Virus record (IMG/VR): IMGVR_UViG_3300045902_000726
Span: 1-51,957 of that record
Length of the DNA: 51,957 bases
Reading direction: 5' to 3' (one strand)
From: a virus
Positions within the stretch are counted from its first letter, which is position 1. Each line of letters opens with the position of its first letter. This document shows positions 1,225-49,179 of the stretch, one piece after another. The notes beneath the pieces are model-generated. The model was not told the DNA's origin, searched no databases, and was given only the letters and a program-made list of their open reading frames with translations. A program made the translations under genes and the position numbers.

Positions 1225-3603
1225 ATGCTGATCAAACAACATGAAAACGAATGGGTGATAGCGTCGGGCGTCGGCAAGGAGATCACAGAATTGAATGTGA
1301 TCTCCTTTGTTGAATCTCGAACTGGTGATAAAGCCAAAAACCAAGAAGCCAACCAGGCAACCAAAGAGGCGATCGCCCAACGCCTCCTCTGGAAAAGTTA
1401 CAGCAACGATTACGGCTGGCTTGTGTCTGGGGTCGATCCCTTGACGGGCGATCGCTCGGATGCTGGCTTGCAATTTAAGCCCAACAAACCTATTGAGGGC
1501 ATGGGCAAATATCTGAGTCGCAAGGGTTCCGGGAAGGCTACCCCATTATTTTTGGCGATGCCCGATCCTACGTTTTGGCCTAACGTCGTTTCCGACGTAG
1601 CAATCAGGGTGTGTTTCACTGAAGGCGCAAAAAAGGCAGGTGCGCTGCTGACCTCTGGGTTTGCTGGCATCTGTATCCCTGGGGTATTCAACGCGGCTCC
1701 ACGGTCAATCTTGCAAACATCCCTGAGCTATTTCGTACAGCGTGGACGTGAGTTTGTTCTTGCCTACGACATGGACATGTACGAAAAACCCCAGGTCAAA
1801 ACGGCACTGGTTAGGCTTGCATTAAACCTGATCCGGCAGGGTGTATCAGTATTTGTCGCTACTTGGGATAAGGAACATAAGGGCATCGATGATCTCAAAA
1901 AAGCTAAGGGCGATCGCGCCGTAAAAGATGCTATTAATAACGCTCACCCATTTGAGCAATGGGCAGAGCAAAACGGGGTAGACATCAAGAATGGGGATGC
2001 TCAAGACAAGTGCAAACTCGCCAAGCAACTAGATGCACTTGATAAGGCAGTAGGGGATCGCCTCCAGTACAACGAACTTACAAAGCAAATTGAGCTAGAC
2101 GGGGAACCCCAAACCCTTGATGATCTAGAGCTAACCTTGGCAATTGAACACAACCTGGAATTCTCCGCCAAGTTTCCTTTGGTCGCCTATGGGGTCGCCA
2201 AGCGGTACAAGTACGACCCGATTAAAGATTATTTAGATCGCGTGTATGAAGAGCGTGGCGACAGCACAGAGGTTTTGAAAAATATTGCCAATCGGTACTT
2301 TGGAACAAGCCACCCCATCTTTGATGTGTTTATCAAAAAGTTTCTAATTGGTGCGGTCGCTCGTATTTGCCAACCTGGATGCAAAAACGACACAGCCTTA
2401 TTCCTTCAGGGTAAGCAGGGCTATTTCAAAAGCACTTGGTTTAAGGTACTAGCTGGCGAGGATTGGTTTGACGACTCGATGGGGGCGATCGGGGATAACG
2501 ATGAAAAAATGAAGCTCCATCGGGTCTGGATCAGTGAATGGGCGGAGCTTGAGACAGTGTTCAAACGCAAGGAACAATCCTTAGTTAAATCGTTGCTCAG
2601 TTCGTCGGTAGACAACCTCAGAAGGCCATACGGACGCGACGTGGAGTCTTTTAAGCGTCGGTCGGTCATTGTCGGTACAACCAACGAACCGGAGTTTCTG
2701 AGCGACCCTACGGGCGATCGCCGTTATTGGGTGGTTCCGGTAAGCAAAATAATTCCCGTTGAGGTTTTAGAACAGGAGCGTGATGCAATTTGGGCGGCTG
2801 CTGTGTCGTTGTATCGGTCGGGGTGCCAGTGGCACTTAACAGATGACGAATCAGCCCTTCAATCTGAGTTTGCAGAGCAGTTCAGAATGCAAGACGCATG
2901 GCACCAAATCGTGGTGGACTATCTAGACCGATTCAATCTTTCAATGGTCAACGTCAACTCAATCCTTAAGGAAGCGTTGCACATTGATGAGGAGCGCTTT
3001 GGGCACAAAGAAAAGATGAGGGTCAGTGACATTCTTAAGTCACTGGGATGGTCGCCAGCACTTAAAACGCTGGACGGCAAGAAGAGAAGAGTATGGGAAG
3101 CGCCATCGGAACAAGCAATGAATGTTGTACCTGTACCTGTTACTCAACCTGTTCCACCTTCAAATCCTTTACCATCAACCGTTTCCTCTACTAGTAACAG
3201 ACTAGAACAGCTTAATCATCATCAAGATCTAATAGATCTTAATAGGGGTACCCCCCAGGGGGGAGGGGGGGTAAAAAAAACGAATCTAAAAAATGAGGTT
3301 CAAACCTGTGCCACCTGTTCCACGCTACCCCCCCAAGCGACCGAAACCCTTGAGAGTGGGCGATCGCACGTTGGAACAGGTTGTCTGACCCCCCCTAGTT
3401 TTTTGGGAACAGGTTGTTCCCAAGCTATTACCGTCGGCATGTCGGGTGAGTATGTGGGCGCAGATAAGGGCTTGCAGGAGTTTTATTACGACGGCATTCA
3501 CGTCGTAGACATTATTGACGGGATGTTGAGGTGTGTCGGGGCGTTGCACCCAAATAGCTTTTTAACGATTACAGCAAACGAGTTTAGGCCGTGGGATGCG
3601 TAG
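1225..3603 (+). CDS. Primase / SF3 helicase (DUF3854-like Toprim + VirE-type ATPase)
   Basis: A 792-residue replication protein. The N-terminal third looks like the Toprim-related DUF3854 domain: FTEGAKKA at 131-138, then acidic AYDMD at 180-184. The centre is a VirE/phage-plasmid-primase type helicase: Walker A GKQGYFKST at 396-404, acidic WISEWAE at 435-441, sensor GTTNEP at 484-489 and DPTGDRRYWVV after it. Such proteins prime and unwind DNA at phage and plasmid origins. Residues about 634-733 are low complexity, rich in P, G, S and C, and are encoded by a nucleotide repeat also found between genes at 22.8 and 37.2 kb. A short ordered-looking tail follows (734-792). No good ribosome site is seen before the ATG. 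The 3' end overlaps the next gene by 13 bases. Confidence 0.85.
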   Translation: MLIKQHENEWVIASGVGKEITELNVISFVESRTGDKAKNQEANQATKEAIAQRLLWKSYSNDYGWLVSGVDPLTGDRSDAGLQFKPNKPIEGMGKYLSRKGSGKATPLFLAMPDPTFWPNVVSDVAIRVCFTEGAKKAGALLTSGFAGICIPGVFNAAPRSILQTSLSYFVQRGREFVLAYDMDMYEKPQVKTALVRLALNLIRQGVSVFVATWDKEHKGIDDLKKAKGDRAVKDAINNAHPFEQWAEQNGVDIKNGDAQDKCKLAKQLDALDKAVGDRLQYNELTKQIELDGEPQTLDDLELTLAIEHNLEFSAKFPLVAYGVAKRYKYDPIKDYLDRVYEERGDSTEVLKNIANRYFGTSHPIFDVFIKKFLIGAVARICQPGCKNDTALFLQGKQGYFKSTWFKVLAGEDWFDDSMGAIGDNDEKMKLHRVWISEWAELETVFKRKEQSLVKSLLSSSVDNLRRPYGRDVESFKRRSVIVGTTNEPEFLSDPTGDRRYWVVPVSKIIPVEVLEQERDAIWAAAVSLYRSGCQWHLTDDESALQSEFAEQFRMQDAWHQIVVDYLDRFNLSMVNVNSILKEALHIDEERFGHKEKMRVSDILKSLGWSPALKTLDGKKRRVWEAPSEQAMNVVPVPVTQPVPPSNPLPSTVSSTSNRLEQLNHHQDLIDLNRGTPQGGGGVKKTNLKNEVQTCATCSTLPPQATETLESGRSHVGTGCLTPPSFLGTGCSQAITVGMSGEYVGADKGLQEFYYDGIHVVDIIDGMLRCVGALHPNSFLTITANEFRPWDA
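3127..3422 (+). repeat. Interspersed repeat family, copy R1 (inside the primase gene)
   Basis: Copy R1 of a ~300-bp family (R2 22830-23120 on the minus strand, R3 37174-37490 on the plus strand). The order of landmarks is shared: ACCTGTACC and AACCTGTTCC near the left end, AATCC then CATCATCAAGA, a GTACCCC/poly-G stretch, GAATCTAAAA, ACCTGTGCCACCTGTTCCA, AAACCCTTG, and GGAACAGGTT near the right end. Here the copy stays open in the primase frame. It ends with a second GGAACAGGTT at about 3407-3416. Confidence 0.8.
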
Positions 3604-6961: not shown

Positions 6962-7169
6962 GTTACGAGCATTGGAGCAACAGCTAGAGAATGATGGGAT
7001 TTACCGAGAATCTCTAATTGCTTGCATCACACAACATTACCGATCCCTTCCTATTACCGAACTAGAAGCGATCGCCCATCAGGTCATCACACCAAAGCCT
7101 CAGAATCCCGAAGTTAAATATCCACAATTAGAACTATTTCCGGTATCCGATTATGCCAACAGTCACTAA
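6954..7169 (+). CDS. Small protein with C-terminal QLELF beta-clamp-binding motif
   Basis: A 71-residue protein whose tail reads YPQLELFPVSDYANSH. QLELF matches the pentapeptide QLxLF by which polymerases, MutS and clamp loaders dock on the bacterial sliding clamp. The next gene, overlapping by 17 bases, is a sliding clamp. The first 45 residues look helical (LRALEQQLENDGIYRESL; ITELEAIAHQVI), followed by a proline-rich linker. It may be a clamp loader surrogate, a clamp regulator or a host-clamp poison; the motif is seen, the role is inferred. Start overlaps the preceding stop as ATGA. Confidence 0.65.
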   Translation: MNELRALEQQLENDGIYRESLIACITQHYRSLPITELEAIAHQVITPKPQNPEVKYPQLELFPVSDYANSH

Positions 7170-8283
7170 ATCCAAAGTTGTCTCTACGACAGTTAGCCTC
7201 AAAGACCTGCAAAAGACATTGGGGATTGTTAAAAAGGCGATCGCCCCTCGTCCATCTCACCCGATTCTTGCAACGGTGAAAATTGAGATGGATGGAACTC
7301 AGCTTAGCTTTGAAGCTTTCAATGCCGAATACGGGATTGTCTCATCCATCCCATGCACGATTGGGGAAACCTGGGCAACCTGTGTTGTCGCTAAGCAGTT
7401 TGTTGACCTTGTGAATAAACTTACAGCCGACGAGGTCACCTTGGAACTTCAAGAGTCACAATTGCTTGTCAAGGCCGGAAAGTCTAAATACTCGTTTGAG
7501 GTTATGCCCTCTGATGAATGGCCTGAAATTCCTACTCCTGATAAAGATCGCATCGCATTTACCGACGAACTTAAAGGGGCGATCGCCCATGTCTCATATT
7601 GTTACAGCAAGGAAGCATACAAAGGCGTGATTAAAGGCGTTCATGTGGGTAGCTACGGCAAGAAAATTGTTTGTGCTGCTACCGATGGGCACAGGTTGAG
7701 TTATACCGAGATCGAAGTTGTATCAGAAGTGTTTGAAACAATGATTCCCGGAGAGGCGATCGCCCTTTTCAAGGGATTGCAGGATTGGAATGAAATCGTG
7801 ATTGAGCGTGAAGGAATCTGGGCATACAGCCCTAATGCTCGGTTTTATTGCCGTGCGTTGGAAGGGCAGTATCCTATGGTCAAGCAACTGATTCCAGTCA
7901 AGTTTCAGGACTCAGTGATCTTTGATAAAGATGAATTGCTGGCTGCGTTGGAGCGGGTAAAGCTCCTGGCTGCGAAAAACTTGTTTACGATGGTGTTTGC
8001 CGATAGTGAATTAGGGACAGCAACTCTTATCCCCAAAGGGGCTGAGTTATCAGAAGAGATTGTAACAGCAAATTGGGTGAGCGATCGCCCCTTTGCGTGT
8101 GGTTTTGACGTGAATTACCTTATTGATGGGTTAAAAGCTGTCACTGAGGATTTGGTGAAGATTGGATTTAATCCCACCGACAAAGTTACCTACAACGACA
8201 TGGAAAGCGTAAGGTCTCCTGTAGTCATTTCTTCAGGAGATGGCTATCCGGTAGAGCTAATCATGCCTGCTTTTGTCCACTGA
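7153..8283 (+). CDS. dnaN: DNA polymerase III beta subunit (sliding clamp)
   Basis: A 376-residue homolog of the bacterial beta clamp, close to the usual ~370-390. The N-terminus SLKDLQKTLGIVKKAIAPRP followed by HPILATVKIEM is the family signature of domain 1. SKYSFEVMPSDEWPEIP ends domain 1 and VCAATDGHRLSYTEIEV lies in domain 2. The last residues, VELIMPAFVH, echo the usual C-terminal xMPxR segment with changes. A clamp tethers polymerase to DNA; no phage polymerase is present in this window, so it presumably recruits the host replisome. ATG start overlaps the previous gene by 17 bases. Confidence 0.93.
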   Translation: MPTVTKSKVVSTTVSLKDLQKTLGIVKKAIAPRPSHPILATVKIEMDGTQLSFEAFNAEYGIVSSIPCTIGETWATCVVAKQFVDLVNKLTADEVTLELQESQLLVKAGKSKYSFEVMPSDEWPEIPTPDKDRIAFTDELKGAIAHVSYCYSKEAYKGVIKGVHVGSYGKKIVCAATDGHRLSYTEIEVVSEVFETMIPGEAIALFKGLQDWNEIVIEREGIWAYSPNARFYCRALEGQYPMVKQLIPVKFQDSVIFDKDELLAALERVKLLAAKNLFTMVFADSELGTATLIPKGAELSEEIVTANWVSDRPFACGFDVNYLIDGLKAVTEDLVKIGFNPTDKVTYNDMESVRSPVVISSGDGYPVELIMPAFVH

Positions 8284-8713
8284 GTTTGCACGATGGTTCT
8301 CATCTGAGCAATTTGTAATTGAATTGCTTTCGGGATTTGACTCAAACGATCATCGTGCCACCATTGTGAAAGTGGTTGGCACCGTCAAAGAAGAGTCAGT
8401 TCGCACCATGTCTGACGATGGAGTCACACAAACTGTAGTTGCATCATCAGGGATTAAGCGAGTCAGCGAAGTGCAAGTTCCTTCCCCATGCTTACTACGA
8501 CCTTATCGTTCGTTTCCTGAAATCGAACAACCCGAATCGTCGTTTGTCTTTCGAATGCAGTCGAGCAGAGCAGGAGAACTGCCTCAGTGCGCCTTATTTG
8601 AGTCTGACGGTGGGCGATGGAAGCTTGAAGCAATAAAGGCTATTTCCATCTACCTCAAAAATGCGCTTGGAAAAGAATATCTAAATCTTCGGAATTTAGC
8701 AATTATTGCATAA
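8273..8713 (+). CDS. Hypothetical protein, 146 aa, last gene of the replication operon
   Basis: Unrecognised. The likely start is a TTG at 8273 that overlaps the dnaN stop; the first in-frame ATG is far inside, so the TTG is preferred. The protein shows alternating beta-like stretches (ATIVKVVGTVKEESVRTM, SEVQVPSPCLLRPYR) and a C-terminal helix (EAIKAISIYLKNALGKEYL). No membrane segment or zinc site is seen. It is followed within 20 bases by a large palindromic terminator, which makes it the last gene of the transcript that begins upstream of the helicase. Confidence 0.55.
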   Translation: MSTEFARWFSSEQFVIELLSGFDSNDHRATIVKVVGTVKEESVRTMSDDGVTQTVVASSGIKRVSEVQVPSPCLLRPYRSFPEIEQPESSFVFRMQSSRAGELPQCALFESDGGRWKLEAIKAISIYLKNALGKEYLNLRNLAIIA

Positions 8714-8727
8714 CGCATACGACCAAT

Positions 8728-8783
8728 ATTTAACAGCAATAGAAAAGCCCTGAGCGCTCAGGGCTTTTCTATTGCTGTTAAAT
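8728..8783. terminator. Bidirectional terminator: 56-bp perfect palindrome
   Basis: The two 28-bp arms are fully complementary with the centre at 8755/8756 (GAGCGCTC). The inner part AGAAAAGCCCTGAGCGCTC continues into its complement and ends GGGCTTTTCT, so both strands give a GC-rich hairpin followed by T residues. It closes the plus-strand replication operon and can also stop the minus-strand transcript of the ribbon-helix-helix gene. A perfect palindrome of this size is unusual for a plain terminator. Confidence 0.85.
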
Positions 8784-8916
8784 TATGCGATCGCATTCTC
8801 GCTCCATTGAGGGGATGAGCATCGCAGCACCTTGGCAGATTTGCAGTTTTGCCATCAACGTTTCAAGGCTATCTGACTGAGACTTTATAAGGATCAAATA
8901 ATGTCAGTATTGAGAA
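8784..8916. other. Intergenic stretch between terminator and RHH gene
   Basis: Contains one HIP1 octamer. A weak minus-strand reading frame (8855 to 8778, 25 residues, or 39 from a TTG at 8897) has protein-like composition, but it has no ribosome site and ends inside the palindrome. I do not call it as a gene. Confidence 0.4.
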
Positions 8917-9135
8917 TCAAGCTCCCTTTTCATTCGCTCCCTCCATTGCGTCTTTAGCCCTCCTCACTGCGCTGGAAAACCCGGGACTTAATTGATGTTG
9001 CTCTAATACCTCACGAACAAAACTGGCTAGGGGCTGCCCCTTCCACCCGGCAACCAACTTAAATTCCTCCAAGGTCACGTCCGACAACGTGATTGATATC
9101 TGATTGCGATCGCCCATCGTCTCACTTTTCCCCAT
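8917..9135 (-). CDS. Ribbon-helix-helix DNA-binding protein
   Basis: A 72-residue protein with a typical ribbon-helix-helix core: beta strand RNQISITL, then SDVTLEEFKLVAGWKG and QPLASFVREVLEQH as the two helices. Such dimers bind short direct repeats and serve as plasmid partition (omega/ParG-like) or transcription regulators. The start at 9135 is chosen because GAGGGG lies six bases before it; longer starts run into Cys-rich unlikely sequence. It is transcribed away from a helically phased array of TGAC repeats that begins about 100 bases upstream, which is its most obvious candidate target. Confidence 0.75.
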   Translation of the reverse strand: MGKSETMGDRNQISITLSDVTLEEFKLVAGWKGQPLASFVREVLEQHQLSPGFSSAVRRAKDAMEGANEKGA

Positions 9136-9205
9136 TCCCATCCCCTCAATAGTGCCCTGTTGCAGAGAATTTTCATAGATACATGCTATCGCACTGCATA
9201 AAGCC

Positions 9206-9233
9206 TTGCACTTGCATGTCATTGTGCTATAGT
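9206..9233 (+). promoter_or_regulatory. Promoter for the 9288 gene
   Basis: TTGCAC, a 16-base spacer, then TATAGT preceded by TG (TGCTATAGT) form a good sigma-70 promoter with an extended -10. The predicted start of transcription, near 9240, is where the TGAC repeat array begins. Confidence 0.6.
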
Positions 9234-9236
9234 AAA

Positions 9237-9345
9237 TGACATCAGATGACAGCAAGTGACATATAAATGACAGTGAGGTGACACAAAATGACAGTCAAAT
9301 TACAGCGAGTGACAAAAACAGCATCACGAATGACAGCAAATGACA
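9237..9345. repeat. Helically phased TGAC(A) iteron array
   Basis: TGAC occurs at 9237, 9247, 9257, 9268, 9279, 9289, 9310, 9331 and 9341. The spacings are 10 or 11 bases or twice that, with degenerate units filling some gaps (TTAC at 9300). All units lie on one face of the helix. The array starts at the predicted transcription start, crosses the ATG at 9288 and continues into the coding region (codons for MTVKLQ, RVTK, SRMTAND). It resembles centromere or iteron arrays bound by RHH or Rep proteins. Confidence 0.8.
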
Positions 9346-9950
9346 TCGAGGGTTCCGTGAATCAAGTGTTTACTCAAAATCGCTACTACACATTCAAAGA
9401 GGTAGCGGAAAAGCTTAATCAAAAATCGAATACTCTTAGCGCCCGGTACTGGGCAAAAATCGCTAAAGCGTATGAAGGAAGCATGTTAACTCTTCGTACC
9501 AGTGATGGGTTAACAATGGATGGTGCAAACGCGATCGCTCAATATATTCAGTTGGTTGTAGAAGGTGGACTGGCTAAGGGCGAATACGAAGCCCTGATCC
9601 GTGAGCGCTACGGCATTGACGCACCAAAAACGAACCAAGAATACGAACAGTTTGACGCTGAATTCGTGGACGATCCCAGTCCATCAGCAGACGTGCCGTT
9701 AAGCATGGATCTGGCGTTGGCAAAGTCTGAAACCCGGCTGGTCGCAACTCAAAACAAAGTTGATGATTTGCTGGCAGATCTGGTAATTAAACATCAGTCG
9801 GTTGCTCAGCGTAGTGCACAAATTGAAACCAATGAACTTCGTTCCGTGTACGAAGAAGAGCGCCAAAAAGAAATCCTTCGGTTGATGGCACGGCAACGCG
9901 CACGGGAGGATGTACAACGGGATTTTTTGGACGCCATGGAAGATGCGTGA
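9288..9950 (+). CDS. Possible DNA-binding protein with HTH-like N-terminus and coiled coil
   Basis: A 220-residue protein of unknown family. Residues 1-22 are encoded by the TGAC array itself. FKEVAEKLNQKSNTLSARYW near 37-56 looks like a helix-turn-helix, and GANAIAQYIQLV may complete a winged domain. Acidic linker around 115-130. From about 140 to the end the protein is charged and heptad-like (ERQKEILRLMARQRAREDVQ), so probably a coiled coil. GAGG about nine bases before the ATG supports the start. Its divergent neighbour is an RHH protein and its stop is coupled to a 35-residue membrane peptide. A partition, replication-control or transfer role is possible. Confidence 0.6.
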   Translation: MTVKLQRVTKTASRMTANDIEGSVNQVFTQNRYYTFKEVAEKLNQKSNTLSARYWAKIAKAYEGSMLTLRTSDGLTMDGANAIAQYIQLVVEGGLAKGEYEALIRERYGIDAPKTNQEYEQFDAEFVDDPSPSADVPLSMDLALAKSETRLVATQNKVDDLLADLVIKHQSVAQRSAQIETNELRSVYEEERQKEILRLMARQRAREDVQRDFLDAMEDA

Positions 9951-10054
9951 TCGCTGTAATATGGGCGATCGCTTTTATCCTGCTAGGGGTTACGGGAGGG
10001 CAACTTACAAAGACTTGGAGCATGAATCATGAAAGCATTGAAAATCCTAACTAG
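9947..10054 (+). CDS. 35-aa single-span membrane peptide
   Basis: GTG start overlapping the previous stop as GTGA. The peptide begins VIAVIWAIAFILLGVTGG, a clear membrane-spanning helix, followed by a polar tail. It overlaps the next gene (10029) by 26 bases. Tight overlap on both sides supports real, coupled expression, but it is very short. It would be one of several small membrane proteins preceding the ATPase. Confidence 0.5.
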   Translation: MIAVIWAIAFILLGVTGGQLTKTWSMNHESIENPN

Positions 10055-10394
10055 CGGCATTATTGGGGCGATCGCCATTTCCTCTCTATCTGTAATGGCG
10101 TTCATGGCGGCTGAAAATGCTCGTGCCCAAGCTATCGGATTAAGTGTTGTTGATGCTGCCAAAAACAGAGGGATCGCGTTTCAAGTTGCTGCAAATTCCC
10201 TATGGATGGTCACCCCAGGCGCATTTGTGGTCTGCATCACAATCGCCTTGATGGTGCAAGACTCCAGTATCAAACGAGAGCATCTTTACCGAATTTTAGG
10301 CGGCATGTTAAACGATCCATTGTTGCCTCAGTCCACACAAGGTGCGATTGGAGAGCTTCAGGAATTCCTAAAAAGCGATCGCCCCAAAAAATGA
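10029..10394 (+). CDS. Membrane protein, two predicted spans
   Basis: A 121-residue protein. Hydrophobic helices lie at about 8-27 (SGIIGAIAISSLSVMAFM) and 60-77 (VTPGAFVVCITIALMVQ), with a short region between and a C-terminal soluble helix (IGELQEFLKS). The arrangement resembles small conjugation or secretion membrane proteins, but no family is recognised. It lies between a 35-residue membrane peptide and further membrane-anchored proteins leading to the FtsK/HerA-like ATPase. Confidence 0.6.
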   Translation: MKALKILTSGIIGAIAISSLSVMAFMAAENARAQAIGLSVVDAAKNRGIAFQVAANSLWMVTPGAFVVCITIALMVQDSSIKREHLYRILGGMLNDPLLPQSTQGAIGELQEFLKSDRPKK

Positions 10395-10458
10395 TGATGT
10401 CAACCTGTAACCCTTAAAAACTCATTAACTCTGTAACTATTTGCAAGGAGATTTAACC

Positions 10459-10602
10459 ATGTTTGATTTTTTGAAATGGCTTTTTGGTGACTTTTCTTCA
10501 AGCGAAGATGACTCTGAGTTCTACGCAGTAATGGACGAACTAGCCGCCAATTCTGTTAACTGTCGGCATTCCTTAGATCGAAACAAGGAGGAATCTAACT
10601 AA
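10459..10602 (+). CDS. Small acidic protein, 47 aa
   Basis: Starts MFDFLKWLFGDF, an aromatic amphipathic helix, followed by an acidic stretch SSSEDDSEF and a helical C-terminus. A clear AAGGAG lies eight bases before the ATG, and the next gene starts two bases after the stop. The amphipathic start could hold it at the membrane with its neighbours. No family is recognised. Confidence 0.6.
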   Translation: MFDFLKWLFGDFSSSEDDSEFYAVMDELAANSVNCRHSLDRNKEESN

Positions 10603-10604
10603 TC

Positions 10605-11468
10605 ATGCCTACCATCCCACCCAGACCAACATACGACGAGGTGCCATCCTCGGAAGCTCCATTTGTGCCTCAACAAGACGAGGTAAGCGATCGCCCATCG
10701 CAGCCTATCCAAGCGTTTTCTAGTTCATCCTGGTTTAACTGGAAAGTGGCGTTAGGGTTGTTAGTGATCGGGTTTATGATTTCTCGCTGTGGTAACGATG
10801 CGGTTGTAGTAACGAATGCCATTGATGCTCCTATAGTGCCACAAGAGCAGGCTCAACCCACACCTGATCCGGTAGTGCCACAAGCCCCGGTATATCCTCG
10901 CGAGGAGTTGGGTGCTGTAATTTCTGTAGAAAATGCCAACACAGCAGCACAGCAACAATTAGAACGAGTAAGACAAGCTGCGTTTGAATTGCGGCAAGAA
11001 GTGGACGCACTAGAGCAAGCGTCAGTGTGTCAACGGGTAGCTTATCTTCAATCAATGGCTCAAGGTGCGAGTCAGCAAGGATTGACGGGTGATGTGTTCG
11101 TTACCCAATCTCTTGCTCGTCTTAGTGGCGAAATTGATCGCATACGAGCATCAAAGGTTGGCTCCACTTATTTGAGCGGAAACGCTGAAGATATCGAAAA
11201 CGCCAGAGCAATCCTTGGTGACACCGAAGCGGTTCTACTTGTTCTCGATGCCGTGACATCCGGGCAACCGATCCCACAGTGCCCAGACATTGAACTGAGC
11301 ACATTGCAAGTTCTTTCTCTAAATCTGATCCAAGGAGTTCAGTTGTCTTCTCAATTGTCAGTAGAGGGTCAAAACCGTCAACTGTATCAACAGCAATTAG
11401 AACAACAGCAACAACCTTTGGCAACTCAACAACCTGCCCAACCTGTATCGATGGAGGGGGTTCAGTAA
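10605..11468 (+). CDS. Single-pass membrane protein with periplasmic coiled coil
   Basis: A 287-residue protein. An acidic, proline-rich N-terminus of about 42 residues is followed by a membrane span (WKVALGLLVIGFMISRCG, about 46-63), a proline-rich linker (PTPDPVVPQAPVYP), a helical charged region, and a Q-rich tail (YQQQLEQQQQ). Two cysteines (CQRVAYLQ and IPQCPDI) in the outer part could form a disulfide. The layout, N-in with a long stalk outside, resembles TrbI/VirB10-like or other envelope-spanning proteins in outline only; no sequence motif supports a family. GGAGG lies about 14 bases upstream of the ATG. The stop overlaps the ATPase start (TAATG). Confidence 0.6.
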   Translation: MPTIPPRPTYDEVPSSEAPFVPQQDEVSDRPSQPIQAFSSSSWFNWKVALGLLVIGFMISRCGNDAVVVTNAIDAPIVPQEQAQPTPDPVVPQAPVYPREELGAVISVENANTAAQQQLERVRQAAFELRQEVDALEQASVCQRVAYLQSMAQGASQQGLTGDVFVTQSLARLSGEIDRIRASKVGSTYLSGNAEDIENARAILGDTEAVLLVLDAVTSGQPIPQCPDIELSTLQVLSLNLIQGVQLSSQLSVEGQNRQLYQQQLEQQQQPLATQQPAQPVSMEGVQ

Positions 11469-12865
11469 TGACAAACGCGATCGCCCATTCCAACAACAAA
11501 ATGAATGCTTTGGTCTGCCTGTTGCTTTCCTTGTCTGGTGTTGGGTGCATCGGGTATGCGACCCAGCGAGTGCCCGAATTGCAAGGCCAACGAGTAGACG
11601 AGCAAGGGCAAATTCAGCAGCTATATCAACTCAAGCCTTCCCCTATGGCGTTTCCCGTAGGCGTGGTTGGCGTAGGTGCATTGGCAGGGGCGATCGCGTT
11701 TGCTCGTCAATCTGGAGTGAGTCTAGGCGATTTATCATCCCTTGCTGATGATGTGACTGCGCTGGTCAAAAAACAAAGTAAGCCACTAGGGGAACGTCTA
11801 TTATCTAAGGTTGTTTCTCTTAAAGTGATTCCATCTCCAGTCAAAGGGGCGATCGCCCGGTTCACCGATGATGTTCAGGAAGTAGATTGGTTTGCCGAAT
11901 TCGTTTCTCGTTCAATGTACGTTGTGGGGCGATCGGGAAGTGGTAAGACTACATTTCTACTATTCCTGCTTTACTATTTTGTGGGTGAGTTCAAGGGACA
12001 TGTGAACATCGTCCTGTGTGATCCTCACTATGGTGCGCCTGACGATGCGGGGAATATTAATTCCTGGTTTGATCTTCCCCCCGCTCAGTTCATCCGTGAT
12101 TCGTTCGACTCGATCTATGCATCGATTGACCATGAGGTGTCTGTACTGAATCAGCGCAAAAAGCAAGCATCGGACGCAGCAAAGAGGGGCGCTCACACTC
12201 CTGTTAAGTTTGAGCCTCGGTTCATCTTGGTCGATGAGTTTATTGCCTTAATGAATGAAGCGAAAACGTTGGACGAATTGGATCAGGGCACACCCAAGGC
12301 GAAGTATCAGGCAAACTTAAAGCGTTCTATTCAATTGCTGTTAGTAGAAGGCCGTAAGTACAAGATTTTTGCGGTAGTCGCATCACAGGATTTTGCCGTC
12401 GGCAGCACTGGGTTGACCACTGACATGATCAGAAATTTTAATGTGATCTTGTTGGGTCAATCCGCTGCTGTTGCCGATAACGTCCGGTACATTCCCGACA
12501 TTTCTTCAAGTGCTGAATGGATTGAGAAGATCAAAACGGCACGAGCGGCAGGGCTAACTTATTCTGCAATCGTGTCTACCCAGTCCGGGTGCAAGATCAA
12601 AACCGTCCCCATGTTCAAAGCTTCTGAAGTGAAGATTCAGCTAAATCCTAAAAACACTACAGAGCTATGGTGGGATGCCCTGCTAGAGCGAGAGGGTTTT
12701 AGCGAGTGGCTATGGGGTCATGCTGAAAAGCAATCATCCCTTAAGGCGGTTCTCGATGGTATCAAGTCTGAATGGGGTGAATCGATTGGAGGGTACAGCA
12801 AAGGCAAGCCTAAGTATGACCTGTTAAGCGAAGTATTTAGTCAAATGAAAGGTGAGGTGAATTGA
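11468..12865 (+). CDS. FtsK/HerA/VirD4-like membrane ATPase
   Basis: A 465-residue DNA-pump-type ATPase. Two N-terminal hydrophobic segments lie at about 14-30 and 60-79. Walker A GRSGSGKTT is at 154-162, Walker B RFILVDEF at 251-258, and a sensor-like VVASQDF near 303-309. The P-loop is followed by the CDPHYG motif typical of HerA/FtsK/VirD4 enzymes. Such proteins move DNA through membranes in cell division, conjugation or packaging. Packaging already has a terminase elsewhere in this genome. The surrounding genes encode membrane proteins and a cell-wall enzyme, so DNA transfer or segregation is the better guess; it has not been matched to a named family. Confidence 0.78.
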   Translation: MTNAIAHSNNKMNALVCLLLSLSGVGCIGYATQRVPELQGQRVDEQGQIQQLYQLKPSPMAFPVGVVGVGALAGAIAFARQSGVSLGDLSSLADDVTALVKKQSKPLGERLLSKVVSLKVIPSPVKGAIARFTDDVQEVDWFAEFVSRSMYVVGRSGSGKTTFLLFLLYYFVGEFKGHVNIVLCDPHYGAPDDAGNINSWFDLPPAQFIRDSFDSIYASIDHEVSVLNQRKKQASDAAKRGAHTPVKFEPRFILVDEFIALMNEAKTLDELDQGTPKAKYQANLKRSIQLLLVEGRKYKIFAVVASQDFAVGSTGLTTDMIRNFNVILLGQSAAVADNVRYIPDISSSAEWIEKIKTARAAGLTYSAIVSTQSGCKIKTVPMFKASEVKIQLNPKNTTELWWDALLEREGFSEWLWGHAEKQSSLKAVLDGIKSEWGESIGGYSKGKPKYDLLSEVFSQMKGEVN

Positions 12866-12866
12866 G

Positions 12867-13115
12867 ATGAAATTACTAGTGAACGGCATCATCGGGTTAG
12901 CGGTCATCATCGGGTTATCTTCTGTTACCCCTCCTGAATCCTGTTCCGGCACTGGTGAAGGTGTTATGGGATTTGTGACCTGCAATGCCCTCAAGGTTGG
13001 GATTTATGTAAGCAAGGGACTGTTGAGCGGGATACAGAGTTTGTATGGTGGGGGTGGGTCTGGTTCCGCCACGCTTCCTGATCAACCTGAATGGGAAGTG
13101 GAGGGACAACAATGA
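12867..13115 (+). CDS. Small secreted or membrane protein, 82 aa
   Basis: Starts one base after the ATPase stop. The N-terminus LLVNGIIGLAVIIGLSS is a signal or membrane helix. Two cysteines follow (ESCSG and VTCNAL), then a second moderately hydrophobic helix and a Gly-rich stretch YGGGGSGS. The pair of cysteines outside the membrane suggests an exported, disulfide-bonded form. No family is recognised. The stop overlaps the next ATG. Confidence 0.55.
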   Translation: MKLLVNGIIGLAVIIGLSSVTPPESCSGTGEGVMGFVTCNALKVGIYVSKGLLSGIQSLYGGGGSGSATLPDQPEWEVEGQQ

Positions 13116-13441
13116 TCGATTTAGCTATTAAATGCGTATGCGTACTTGGGTTTGGATGGTTTGTTGTTGTCACTGTTCAACCCTTTGGACTAACTCCTGA
13201 TTCAGTGACTAACGAGATACGCAATCGCATTCCTGCTGATTTGCAACAGGAAATAGAACAATTCGGTGAACCAACAATTGACGGAGGGATGCAAAACCCA
13301 GAACAAGTGCAACAGCCAGAGCAAGACCCGCCCGCATTTGACCCTTCTCGATACACGGGAAATGACTTGACACGCGATCGCGCATTGGAAGGAATTGACC
13401 CATATTTCACAGGAGGCAAAAACAATGGAGCTGCCAACTGA
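13112..13441 (+). CDS. Membrane-anchored acidic protein, 109 aa
   Basis: A membrane helix occupies about residues 3-22 (LAIKCVCVLGFGWFVVVTV), followed by a soluble, acidic and Q/P-rich tail with EQVQQPEQDPPAFDP. The start at 13112 overlaps the preceding stop (ATGA). No family is recognised. Part of the membrane-protein run that follows the ATPase; it overlaps the next start by 17 bases. Confidence 0.55.
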   Translation: MIDLAIKCVCVLGFGWFVVVTVQPFGLTPDSVTNEIRNRIPADLQQEIEQFGEPTIDGGMQNPEQVQQPEQDPPAFDPSRYTGNDLTRDRALEGIDPYFTGGKNNGAAN

Positions 13442-14369
13442 GATCGGAAATCAAAAAAAGGCGATCGCTGAATTTTGGAAGGCAGCACGGGAAGGCGATA
13501 AGAATCTAGATCTATTGCATCGTGGTGTTACCGGATTTCACAAGTTCACAAAAGATGAGCGATCACTTTGGGGGATGCTAGCTGATAAATATTCTGAGCA
13601 GTTGGCCTGGTGGGGATATCGCCCGAAGCCCAAAAACTCTCCCACTAAACCTCGCGAAAAAACTATTTCAGAGATGACCGGGAAAGAGTTCCTGTCCCTT
13701 TTGGACAAGGCAGGGAAGGCACAGCACAAACGCCAATCGCCATTGTTTAAGGGTGTGTCTCGCAGTGTCTTATCTCTTGATCCCACGCGCAAGTTTTCTA
13801 CATGGATGGCGATCGCCCTTATGGGATTAGGTATCTACTGGACTGGTAATCGCTTAGTGTGGAACTGGCAACAATTACGAGAAATGACACCACAAGAAAT
13901 TATTCAAGCGTTGTTAAATATCTCATCTATAGGCGGGGGGTTAGACATTGAAATCCCATCTCTTGAAGGATTCAGTCCAGAGCAAATTAATAATGCTGAG
14001 CAGATTATTGAGACGGGACGGGCAATGAATATGTCTGACAGGGATATTCAGATTGCCTTGATGACTGCATTACAAGAATCCTCAATGCAAAATTTAGAGC
14101 ATGGTGACGATTGGTGGTTTGCTGCCAACGGATGGGGAGTGAGCGATTCCCGTGGACTATTTCAACAGCGTGACTCATGGGGTTCTCAGGAGTGCAGGTT
14201 AGATCCAAGGTGTTCTTCTCAGTTGTTTTATAATGCTCTGTCCCAAATTGGCGATCGCGTGTCGATGGATTTGGGAGATGTGGCTCAGGCTGTGCAAAAT
14301 AGCGCATTTCCTGACCATTACGATCAGTGGGAAGATGAAGCCAAAGCATTGCTAGAGGCAAGCAAATGA
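13425..14369 (+). CDS. Lysozyme-like (muralytic) membrane protein
   Basis: A 314-residue protein. The N-terminal ~120 residues are soluble and basic. A membrane helix (WMAIALMGLGIYWTGNRLV) lies at about 126-144. The C-terminal domain matches the lysozyme-like fold seen in many actinobacterial mobile-element and tail proteins: IALMTALQESSMQNL, then SRGLFQQRDSWG, then AQAVQNSAFPDHYDQWE. E in ALQES is the expected catalytic acid. It would open peptidoglycan locally, as conjugation and secretion systems require; a lysis role is an alternative. The ATG at 13425 has GGAGG nine bases upstream. Confidence 0.75.
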   Translation: MELPTEIGNQKKAIAEFWKAAREGDKNLDLLHRGVTGFHKFTKDERSLWGMLADKYSEQLAWWGYRPKPKNSPTKPREKTISEMTGKEFLSLLDKAGKAQHKRQSPLFKGVSRSVLSLDPTRKFSTWMAIALMGLGIYWTGNRLVWNWQQLREMTPQEIIQALLNISSIGGGLDIEIPSLEGFSPEQINNAEQIIETGRAMNMSDRDIQIALMTALQESSMQNLEHGDDWWFAANGWGVSDSRGLFQQRDSWGSQECRLDPRCSSQLFYNALSQIGDRVSMDLGDVAQAVQNSAFPDHYDQWEDEAKALLEASK

Positions 14370-14746
14370 CATCAGGAATCAATCACGACCGGGGCATTCT
14401 TGCAGTAGGAACACTACTGGCGATCGCCACTACCCAAACACCGTTGCCCTACGACGGGTTTCTGATTGGTGGTTTCTTGTGGGGTGGGTGGTTCGCATCA
14501 CCTGACGTTGACACCATCAGTAAATCATCTAAGCGGTTGCCTATATGGTGGGCATACAGAGCAATATTCAAGCATCGGGGCATATCTCACACATTGTTAT
14601 TGGGGACGCTGACCAGGGTTGTTTACTGCCTGCCCCTACTGTTCCTGCTCTGGTATAACGGAGCATCACTAGGAGCGATCGCGTTTTTATTGATTGGATG
14701 GGAATTATCGGCCTGGGTTCACTATTTTCAAGATGGAATTTTATGA
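14366..14746 (+). CDS. DUF2227-like putative metal-binding membrane protein
   Basis: A 126-residue protein with conserved polar motifs between membrane helices: NHDRG near the start, ASPDVDT near 44-50, KHRGISHTLL near 69-78 and WVHYFQDG at the end. These His/Asp motifs match the YdjM/DUF2227 group of membrane-bound putative metal hydrolases, common in cyanobacteria. The substrate is unknown. Start overlaps the previous stop (ATGA) and stop overlaps the next start (ATGA), so it belongs to the same operon. Confidence 0.7.
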   Translation: MTSGINHDRGILAVGTLLAIATTQTPLPYDGFLIGGFLWGGWFASPDVDTISKSSKRLPIWWAYRAIFKHRGISHTLLLGTLTRVVYCLPLLFLLWYNGASLGAIAFLLIGWELSAWVHYFQDGIL

Positions 14747-16169: not shown

Positions 16170-16541
16170 TTAAAATCCTACCTGCTTAATCAGCCTTCTA
16201 ATCTCATTGTCGGTCGCCAGAACCGAATGGGTTGTACTAAGCAACAGTGCGACCACGCTATCGACTGGCAATAGTGAAACCGATCCCCTAAGTGTTGATA
16301 GCTCTTGCTGTTGTTCTTCGGTCAACTCAGGGACTTTTAAGACATGGGCGATCGCCCCTGGCTTGCCAAATCTTTTTTCTAGAATGTGCCTATGGAATTC
16401 GGCAACATAGTTTTGCTTGGTGATCAGTATCTCGGTGGATTGCAAAAGGAGAGCGATCGCCTGTTTCCGTGTCATCCCTTTGGCGCTTTCAGTCATTAGC
16501 CGAAAGCTGAACTGTTGCTCTAGTGTGAGTTCGTTACTCAT
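16170..16541 (-). CDS. nblA: NblA-like phycobilisome degradation protein with C-terminal extension
   Basis: The first ~58 residues match NblA, the small helical adaptor that brings phycobilisomes to Clp protease: ELTLEQQFSFRLMTES, then MTRKQAIALLLQSTEIL, then TKQNYVAEFHRHILEKRFG. The family has LEQxFSLR, MSxEQAxxxLL and the RExMYxxLLK pattern at the same spacing. Known NblA proteins are about 60 residues; this one has 123, with an extra helical region from 60 onward. Some freshwater cyanophages (for example Ma-LMM01) carry nblA, thought to recycle light-harvesting protein during infection. AAGGAG lies upstream, and an operator (16572-16589) overlaps a TGCTATCAT promoter element, so expression is probably under repressor control. 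Confidence 0.85.
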   Translation of the reverse strand: MSNELTLEQQFSFRLMTESAKGMTRKQAIALLLQSTEILITKQNYVAEFHRHILEKRFGKPGAIAHVLKVPELTEEQQQELSTLRGSVSLLPVDSVVALLLSTTHSVLATDNEIRRLIKQVGF

Positions 16542-31774: not shown

Positions 31775-31993
31775 ATGCAAGAAATAAACAAAGGTCGGTA
31801 TACCCCGCAATTTAGAGAGAAATCTTTTACTGCGCCCGATCTCCCATTAGGAACTCTGGCAAAAAAAACAATTGGGTTAAGGCTCCCTGTCGAGCACGAC
31901 CGAATCGTTCGGAGCATCCCGGACATGCAGGTCTGGTTAAGGCGTGTAGTCCGGGATGCTCTTATCAAAGATGGCCTTATAGGGGATCGATAA
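31775..31993 (+). CDS. Hypothetical protein, 72 aa, possible regulator
   Basis: ATG at 31775 with GGAGG about twelve bases upstream. Basic N-terminus, then LPLGTLAKKTIGLRLPVEHD and a C-terminal helix (DMQVWLRRVVRDALIKDGL). The strand TIGLRLP followed by two helices resembles a short ribbon-helix-helix fold. It is flanked by the GCGGTTAACCGC operators, so autoregulation is possible. Its end overlaps the convergent sigma factor gene by 57 bases. Confidence 0.55.
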   Translation: MQEINKGRYTPQFREKSFTAPDLPLGTLAKKTIGLRLPVEHDRIVRSIPDMQVWLRRVVRDALIKDGLIGDR

Positions 31994-33229
31994 ATGAGAC
32001 CCAGCAAGGGAAGATTCAGGAGCAGGTAAATCGCTAAAAATATCCACGTTTGCTGCTCGTCTTAATTTGCGAGTGGCAGCCACCTGAATCTGTCGAATTC
32101 GTTTACTAGATAGGTTAAGCGATCGCCCAATTTTTGCTAACGTTTCCGGGCGATCGCACCCAATCCCATAGCTTCTTTCTATCACCATCCTTTCCCGTGG
32201 TGATAAATGTTCAAGTAACTCTTCCACCATCAACTCACCCAGGCCATCACCAATCATGTATTCGGGATTGACCGGTGAATCGGCAATGAGATCCATTAAC
32301 TCGTGATCCTTTTCACCTCCCACCCCGCGATTAAGTGAGGTGGGCTTCATCGTTTGATGCAAGATATCTTGCACCTTAGAGCGCCATCCCAGATGTGCTT
32401 CAATTTCTTGGGGTGAGGGCGATCGCCCCAATTTTTGCTCTAGTTTTTCTGTCGCAATTTTAATCTCAGATGCTTTAGTAAGCATCTGAGATGACATACC
32501 GTTCTTCCAGCCTAGGGAAGCATCCAATTCTCGCATAAGGGGCGATCGCCCGTTTTGCTCGGTCAGTTCAATCTTTTTAGCTTTAACTAGCTCTTCTCGC
32601 TCCAACACCGAGCTTACGGAATAATCCCACCCGAGATATTGTTCAATCTCAATGATGGAGGGCGATCGCCCGTTTTGCTGTGCTAAAATTTGACGCGCCT
32701 TTTTGATCCGGTTCATCTTGTCCACAATATGGATGGGAATCCTGATTGTCCTGGCTTTATTATCGATGCCTCGAACAATGGATTGGCGTATCCACCAATA
32801 AGCATAGGTAGAGAATTTGTAACCTTTACTGGGGTCAAATTTAAGAACCGATGTGTGCAAACCTATAGAGCCTTCCTGAATCAGGTCTTGTAACTCCATC
32901 CCTCGGTTCTGGTACTTTTTGGCAACTGATACTACCAGACGTAGGTTAGCCTGCATCATGCGCTGGTGTGCGCGCATTCCACGGACTATCGCTCTTTTGA
33001 GTTCATCGAGCGATAGTCCAGCAAGGTTAGATAGTTCGGAGTCGAGGGGCGATCGTTTTTTCGCCTTAATAAATTTTTCCTTAGCCTTCTCGATAGCCTG
33101 CCATTTTTGAACCTGAGTAGCCAGATCTTTCTCCTGATCGGCTGACAGTAAAGGGTATCGTCCAATGCTGCGGAGATAGGTCTGGATTGAGTCTTTTGCC
33201 ATAGGGGAGGGAGTGGTTGCGTGAGACAT
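31937..33229 (-). CDS. Sigma-70 family factor with triplicated region-3 module
   Basis: A 430-residue phage-borne sigma factor. Region 1.2 lies near residues 13-40 (DSIQTYLRSIGRYPLLS). Region 2 lies near 94-160 (ANLRLVVSVAKKYQNRG, LQDLIQEGSIGL, FDPSKGYKFSTYAYWWIRQS), all as in RpoD group 1/2. Region 4 lies near 338-392 (LSPRERMVIERSYGI, ETLAKIGRSLNLSSKRIRQI). Between them, instead of one region 3, are three ~40-residue copies of a GRSPxxxEIexxLGW unit, at 177-210, 217-251 and 258-290. Each GRSP is coded by a HIP1 octamer. It would redirect host RNA polymerase, probably to phage late genes. Two operators lie immediately upstream. Confidence 0.9.
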   Translation of the reverse strand: MSHATTPSPMAKDSIQTYLRSIGRYPLLSADQEKDLATQVQKWQAIEKAKEKFIKAKKRSPLDSELSNLAGLSLDELKRAIVRGMRAHQRMMQANLRLVVSVAKKYQNRGMELQDLIQEGSIGLHTSVLKFDPSKGYKFSTYAYWWIRQSIVRGIDNKARTIRIPIHIVDKMNRIKKARQILAQQNGRSPSIIEIEQYLGWDYSVSSVLEREELVKAKKIELTEQNGRSPLMRELDASLGWKNGMSSQMLTKASEIKIATEKLEQKLGRSPSPQEIEAHLGWRSKVQDILHQTMKPTSLNRGVGGEKDHELMDLIADSPVNPEYMIGDGLGELMVEELLEHLSPRERMVIERSYGIGCDRPETLAKIGRSLNLSSKRIRQIQVAATRKLRRAANVDIFSDLPAPESSLAGSHLSIPYKAIFDKSIPDYTP

Positions 33230-48326: not shown

Positions 48327-48608
48327 ATGCTCTCTAAGTTCCAAGCATTGCTCACCTCCGGACAGTTTGAGCTTCTCACCCACGGCAACACGTTTACAGA
48401 AGAAGGCGATCGCCTCACCATTCACACTACCCAATGGATTGGTTTTGCGATCGCCCGTCTTGCTAAGGTTTATCTAGACACCGCTCAGCAAATAGGGGTC
48501 ACCCTCTACTTACAGGCTGGCGACAAAAAAGCGGTTAAGCTAGCTCCATTATCTGACAGTCGCATTCTTGCAATAGTTGCGCCAGAAGGTCATGCGATCG
48601 CCCGGTAG
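48327..48608 (+). CDS. Hypothetical protein, 93 aa
   Basis: AAGGA lies about eight bases before the ATG. LSKFQALLTSGQFELLTHGN, RLTIHTTQWIGFAIARLAKV, then SDSRILAIVAPEGHAIAR. No family recognised. It converges with, and overlaps by 74 bases, the repressor gene, which suggests mutual interference of the two transcripts. Confidence 0.55.
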   Translation: MLSKFQALLTSGQFELLTHGNTFTEEGDRLTIHTTQWIGFAIARLAKVYLDTAQQIGVTLYLQAGDKKAVKLAPLSDSRILAIVAPEGHAIAR

Positions 48609-49179
48609 CGGCTGCAATTGCCTCAACCTCATCAGCCCCAACCTCGTCTACACCATTCATAATTTCCCGGAATCTTTTAGCAGAGATTTCGGGAATCGTT
48701 TTTTCTAAAGGGTTTTTGTCGAACCAGTCACGGGCGATCGCCCCCAAAACTGCACACTTTGATTGAGATAATCGTGCGTCATCTTCCATTTTATTGATGC
48801 CAAGTTTTATTAGTGCACTAAGATAGCCTGATGGTAGATAGGTGATGAAATCTTTAGGCGATAGCACTCGAATCATCGCCCCTATAACTTTTTCAATAAA
48901 TGGGCGATCGCCCCTCTTGATCAGCAGTAAAGCTTTATCGTGTGGCATTAGGGTTTCATCCATCAGCCACGCATAGACTTCAGCCCCGGAGGTTCCCCGT
49001 GCTCCGCCAATCCCTTGCACGACTTCTAGAGAAGGATAGCCTGTCTTGCCTGTCAGCAGGTTGTAGATTGTCGGTTGGGATACGCCTACACGACGCGCCA
49101 TCTCGTGACTCGACCAGCCTTGTTCTTTCTGCCATTCGGTAAGTTTTTCTGCGATCGTCTGTTGCTTAAGCGTGTCCAT
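48535..49179 (-). CDS. XRE-family repressor-like protein, 214 aa
   Basis: N-terminal Cro/CI-type helix-turn-helix at about 8-60: AEKLTEWQKEQGWSSHEMAR, VGVSQPTIYNLLTGKTGYPS. The rest is helical. A second HTH-like segment may lie near the end (EVGADEVEAIAAATGRS). There is no Ser/Lys LexA-type self-cleavage motif that I can see. It is the best candidate to bind TGATAG-N6-CTATCA: two such sites lie just upstream of its own start, as expected for autoregulation. It would then repress nblA, the ruvC-like gene and the sigma factor. Confidence 0.75.
   Translation of the reverse strand: MDTLKQQTIAEKLTEWQKEQGWSSHEMARRVGVSQPTIYNLLTGKTGYPSLEVVQGIGGARGTSGAEVYAWLMDETLMPHDKALLLIKRGDRPFIEKVIGAMIRVLSPKDFITYLPSGYLSALIKLGINKMEDDARLSQSKCAVLGAIARDWFDKNPLEKTIPEISAKRFREIMNGVDEVGADEVEAIAAATGRSHDLLAQLLQECDCQIMELA

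Follow-up and report, generated by a model that had tools for sequence, protein, structure and literature searches.

A TGACA array phased at 10.5 bp over the start of an orphan gene in a circular phage genome: a possible autoregulatory operator and centromere-like site

The window analysed here, which is the whole stretch of 51,957 nucleotides, carries near 9.2 kb an array of a short DNA word that starts upstream of an orphan gene and runs into its coding sequence. A small RHH-like gene diverges from the orphan gene. The features of the locus are as follows.

8728–8783, no strand: perfect palindrome of 56 bp with 28-bp arms and no spacer, the longest in the window, lying between convergent genes and probably a bidirectional terminator
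8917–9126, minus strand: gene of an RHH-like small protein of 70 aa, RHH-like by pattern, starting as MGKSETMGDRN or MGDRN
9206–9233, plus strand: putative promoter of extended −10 type for the 220-aa gene, inferred from the sequence
9217–9223, minus strand: inverted RRTGACA unit (TGTCATT), read from the sequence
9237–9345, plus strand: RRTGACA array of nine exact units and TTACA at 9300, phased at 10.5 bp, by exact-word listing and period fit
9275–9281, plus strand: Shine–Dalgarno sequence GAGGTGA, read from the sequence, overlapping the fifth TGACA unit at 9279
9288–9950, plus strand: ORF of the 220-aa orphan protein, with its regions taken from a single-sequence model

The exact-word listing places TGACA at 9237, 9247, 9257, 9268, 9279, 9289, 9310, 9331 and 9341, with successive spacings of 10, 10, 11, 11, 10, 21, 21 and 10 bp, and a tenth in-phase site at 9300 is the degenerate TTACA. 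The sequence-only reading had described nine TGAC units at spacings of 10–11 bp or double that, which is right, and the exact word is one letter longer. Two purines precede all nine TGACA units, and so the unit is RRTGACA. The best-fit period of the array is 10.46 bp (R = 0.983), which equals the pitch of B-DNA. A search of 60 order-3 Markov genomes for chains of any non-trivial 5-mer at spacings of 10, 11 or 20–22 bp yielded a longest chain of 3 units, compared with 9 in the real array, and the genome contains no second 5-mer array of more than four units, the one that reaches four being made of the overlapping word ATGAC. The TGACA array is far beyond chance and is unique in the 51.8-kb genome. 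Placed once per helical turn and extending over a gene start, its sites have the geometry of a cooperative multi-site operator, a centromere or an iteron. Our searches found no related genome bearing the array.

The array does span the gene start, as had been claimed: five units precede ATG 9288, and the other four fall within the ORF. ATG 9288 is backed as the start codon because a good Shine–Dalgarno sequence, GAGGTGA, precedes it with a gap of 6 nt. The candidate promoter consists of TTGCAC (9206–9211), TGC (9225–9227) as the extended TG, and TATAGT (9228–9233), and it is plausible though weak by consensus. The −35 box matches the consensus at only three of six positions, and a stringent consensus promoter scan does not list 9206–9233. 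The −10 box TATAGT is the centre of a 7-bp dyad, TGTCATT-N11-AATGACA (9217–9241), formed by the inverted unit and the first direct unit. The inverted unit at 9217–9223 is absent from the sequence-only reading.

Inside the coding sequence, the units at 9289, 9310 and 9331 are set 21 bp apart, which corresponds to seven codons and two helical turns, and this spacing gives two successive [MV]TxxxxR residue motifs followed by MT. When the codons for residues 1–22 were redrawn synonymously with the phage's own codon usage, all four in-ORF units survived in 5.65e-4 (0.06%) of 200,000 draws. Since the units survive such redrawing so rarely, selection acts on the DNA word itself inside the ORF, beyond the amino acids.

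Searches of IMG/VR, GTDB genome contigs, INPHARED and PLSDB returned no homologue of the 220-aa protein, and neither did the 17 records reached via neighbouring genes nor 36 records of terminase kin. DNA similarity of 7153–14746 to phages was not found either. A Pfam scan identified neither KfrA_N nor any other named domain in the protein, no initiator family matched it, and sequence searches of the PDB gave nothing sensible. The single-sequence structure model has low confidence (pLDDT 51) and is only indicative. In this model the N-terminus, which coincides with the stretch encoded by the array, is disordered; next comes an HTH-like region, helical but with two short strands, at about residues 24–90 (elements at about 32–61, pLDDT about 55), and a long helix or coiled coil occupies about residues 140–219 at the C-terminus (pLDDT 40–80). 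The model suggests a layout of an N-terminal HTH-like region followed by a long C-terminal coiled coil.

As expected of a circular assembly, the window ends repeat 127 bp exactly, and an ORF spans the end-to-start junction; the window is a complete phage genome, circular and 51.8 kb long. It encodes a terminase, a portal-like protein (DUF4055), a major head protein and a tape-measure protein, together with a replication cluster of helicase, primase, RNase H, RuvC-like protein and beta clamp, and the array lies at the edge of this cluster. Other genes that bear on lifestyle and gene order are the following.

1225–3603: VapE-type primase-helicase
11468–12865, plus strand: membrane-anchored FtsK/HerA-like ATPase, also present in Planktothrix phage PaV-LD and on two plasmids of Oscillatoria
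16170–16541, minus strand: NblA, a phycobilisome-degradation gene and cyanophage auxiliary gene
31937–33229, minus strand: sigma-70 factor of primary type encoded by the phage, comprising regions 1.2 to 4
48535–49179, minus strand: CI/Cro-type HTH repressor, a temperate signature

The gene content, including NblA, makes a cyanobacterial host most likely. No Pfam match to a tyrosine integrase or a serine resolvase was obtained in the genome, while control genomes scored. The genome thus bears the signature of a phage-plasmid, with a repressor, no integrase detected by Pfam and a circular genome, and a repressor without an integrase suggests a prophage in plasmid form. Such a plasmid-like prophage would need a maintenance system. 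A search of the genome for ParA with AAA_31 was empty, with all 14 controls scoring. The StbA_N (ParM) search was also empty, which is a weak test in that none of the control genomes scored either, and Pfam revealed no actin-like ATPase among the proteins neighbouring the array.

Par of plasmid pSK1 is a single partition protein with an HTH and a coiled coil, and has repeats upstream of its own gene, which are not known to enter the ORF. The phage locus is similar in having a single HTH and coiled-coil candidate with upstream repeats. The Oscillatoria ParMRC system (type II) has 10-bp repeats upstream, and the phage array occupies the corresponding slot upstream of the ATPase gene; unlike ParMRC, the phage has no detected actin-like ATPase, its candidate binder is of HTH and coiled-coil type, and the repeat sequence is another. 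Phased repeats in a coding region are also known from the iterons of lambda O and DnaD-like initiator genes, and TGACA recurs in several such genes. Those iterons differ from the phage repeats, which cover promoter, leader and start codon and come with neither initiator homology nor an unwinding region.

The closest functional parallel is KfrA of the IncU plasmid RA3, with StbA of R388 second. KfrA, a protein with an HTH and an alpha-helical tail, represses its own gene and stabilises RA3, and five 9-bp repeats in both orientations surround the kfrA −10 box and occur only at that one place in RA3 (PMC7783346). The phage array likewise has both orientations around its own −10 box and is unique in its replicon; the low-confidence model of the 220-aa protein hints at an HTH-like region near the N-terminus ahead of a long helical tail. 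The repetitive operator around its own promoter by which the KfrA family is judged is found here by position, in the array together with the inverted unit. The phage differs from KfrA in having ten units at a 10.5-bp pitch that enter the ORF instead of five 9-bp repeats, in lacking sequence similarity and KfrA_N in the 220-aa protein, and in being a phage and not a conjugative plasmid. The likeness is therefore one of working like KfrA, by analogy, and not of membership, because KfrA_N is absent. The targets of StbA are two sets of five 9-bp repeats that lie at an 11-bp pitch around the promoter of its own gene, and segregation of R388 requires StbA whereas the putative motor is dispensable (PMC3098194). 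The phage locus is similar in that short direct repeats, set in helical phase, lie around the promoter of the gene for the presumed binder, and StbA is an example of maintenance without a required motor. The R388 stbDRs differ in their sequence, TTGCATCAT at an 11-bp pitch, in their two sets of five and in their operon with stbBC; unlike the phage array, they are not reported within an ORF, and no homology of StbA to the 220-aa protein was detected.

We tentatively favour, at somewhat less than even confidence, the hypothesis that the array is a cooperative autoregulatory multi-site operator for the 220-aa product and probably serves as a centromere-like maintenance site as well. The 220-aa protein would bind one RRTGACA site per helical turn on a single face of the DNA, and would start at the inverted site by the −10 box and spread across the leader into the first 20 codons. 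By coating the array it would repress its own transcription, with its coiled coils holding the nucleoprotein complex together, and the same complex would probably be the maintenance site of the plasmid-form prophage, needing no motor gene of its own, in the manner of KfrA and StbA. That the 220-aa protein may coat the array and repress itself is drawn from the parallels with KfrA and StbA, and we infer all three of the binder's identity, the autoregulation and the role in inheritance. The sequence-only reading had proposed a filament on a partition centromere or iteron; its geometry, phased and over a gene start, agrees with what was found, and its partition role is not supported, with an orphan 220-aa protein and no adjacent motor gene. 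A bolder and rather improbable version would be a motor-less single-gene partition system of a cyanobacterial phage-plasmid, in which the centromere is written into the promoter, the ribosome-binding site and the first 20 codons of the binder's own gene. If this were true, gene control and inheritance would be one nucleoprotein filament, and the N-terminus of the protein would be dictated by DNA phase.

TGACA arrays also occur in other viruses. A viral scan yielded at least 119 loci, compared with 61 for one scrambled control word of the same composition, and among the matches listed, arrays with varied flanks numbered 28 for TGACA and 11 for the control word. A common TGACA system across viruses is not claimed, because the arrays occur in unrelated contexts, namely initiator-like genes, terminase neighbourhoods and a PapB-like gene. 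Arrays with a 10/11-bp pitch lie inside initiator-like genes of other phages (loci L134, L130, L131, L042, L051 and L059), within ORFs of 331–350 aa in L130, L131, L134 and L042, and these genes adjoin RuvC-like or DnaC-like genes. The arrays in these initiator-like genes are possibly origins. In L096 (435–492), as well as in L104 and L109, a TGACA array lies about 80–140 bp upstream of a gene for a PapB-like small regulator. Kinship with L004 (10957–11020) was rejected, as its 11-bp GTGAACAACAA repeats lie in a different, DnaD-type phage gene and are unrelated in sequence.

These arrays bear on an unlikely but serious alternative, in which the array would be the iterons of a replication origin and the 220-aa protein an initiator that loads the VapE-type primase-helicase (1225–3603). 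The position at the edge of the replication cluster and the 10/11-bp-pitch arrays within initiator-like genes are in keeping with an origin; however, the repeats of the other phages lie mid-gene and not across a promoter, no DnaA boxes stand by the array, the AT content of 58–62% around it marks no AT-rich unwinding region, GC skew does not switch at 9.2 kb and the 220-aa protein has no initiator homology. It is slightly more doubtful that the array is bound by the divergent RHH-like protein, in the manner of ParR or omega, to give a centromere and operator under RHH control. RHH proteins of the ParR and omega (pSM19035) type bind phased short direct repeats, and here an RHH-like gene is adjacent and divergent. 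The RHH gene of the sequence-only reading is RHH-like by pattern, but Pfam RHH models score below cut-off, the structure model is weak, the RHH fold is unproven and no motor partner is present. The 70-aa protein is homologous to small proteins of four Nostoc plasmids (39–44% identity, E 3e-8 to 2e-7), which counts in favour of RHH binding, but none of these four loci has a TGACA array near the RHH-like gene, and two of them carry instead a palindrome around AATT, AGTAYAATTGTACT, upstream of it. Binding of the RHH-like protein to the array, which the sequence-only reading had proposed to footprint, is weakened and not favoured by this comparison because the homologues on Nostoc plasmids lack the array. 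The exact motif ATTGTRCTAT occurs once in the window, as ATTGTGCTAT at 9221–9230 over the −10 box, and resembles an arm of the palindrome upstream of the Nostoc homologues. It could be a separate RHH site, and is a weak lead from a motif chosen post hoc.

Also unlikely, a shade more so than RHH binding, is a purely transcriptional operator that takes no part in inheritance or replication, whether its binder is the 220-aa protein or a different regulator of the phage, for instance the CI-type repressor. The place of the array over promoter, leader and start codon would suffice for repression, and the array upstream of the PapB-like regulator gene (L096) offers a precedent in other phages. However, nine sites in 109 bp and selection within the ORF far exceed simple repression, for which KfrA requires just two or three repeats (PMC7783346). 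A neutral minisatellite arising by slippage or tandem duplication is very improbable. Tandem Repeats Finder fits units of 21 bp and 32 bp at 77–78% identity, and duplication may have built the array; against neutrality, the TGACA letters are invariant in all nine units while the flanks vary, the phase is held through 10/11-bp indels, and the ORF shows the synonymous-site bias.

Extrachromosomal persistence of cyanophage prophages is poorly known, and the mechanism of motor-less plasmid maintenance by StbA and KfrA is still open. Under the favoured hypothesis of an autoregulatory operator with a maintenance role, a nine-site array overlapping its own gene would be a compact test system. The array is also an example of a coding sequence constrained by the helical phase of DNA and not by the protein alone.

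Comparison of gene order places the locus among plasmids and phages. The ATPase (11468–12865) has relatives on two plasmids of Oscillatoria acuminata, and others in Planktothrix phage PaV-LD and the kin of that phage. On the Oscillatoria plasmids pOSCIL6304.01 and pOSCIL6304.02, the slot upstream of two small genes and the ATPase gene is occupied by an actin-like parM gene and a gene of 71 aa, and three 10-bp repeats lie upstream of parM. PaV-LD-type phages have one or two small genes in the slot and, as in this phage, a divergent RHH-like gene; no array was found in these relatives. For the two small genes that separate the array from the ATPase gene, no homology to their Oscillatoria plasmid or PaV-LD counterparts was detectable, and the argument from a shared slot, being one of gene order alone, is suggestive at best. 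In NC_019700.1 and NC_019694.1 (Oscillatoria), parM stands beside genes for an FtsK-like ATPase and for a lysis-type enzyme (GH108/M23), and cyanophages share this order, hinting at exchange between phages and plasmids.
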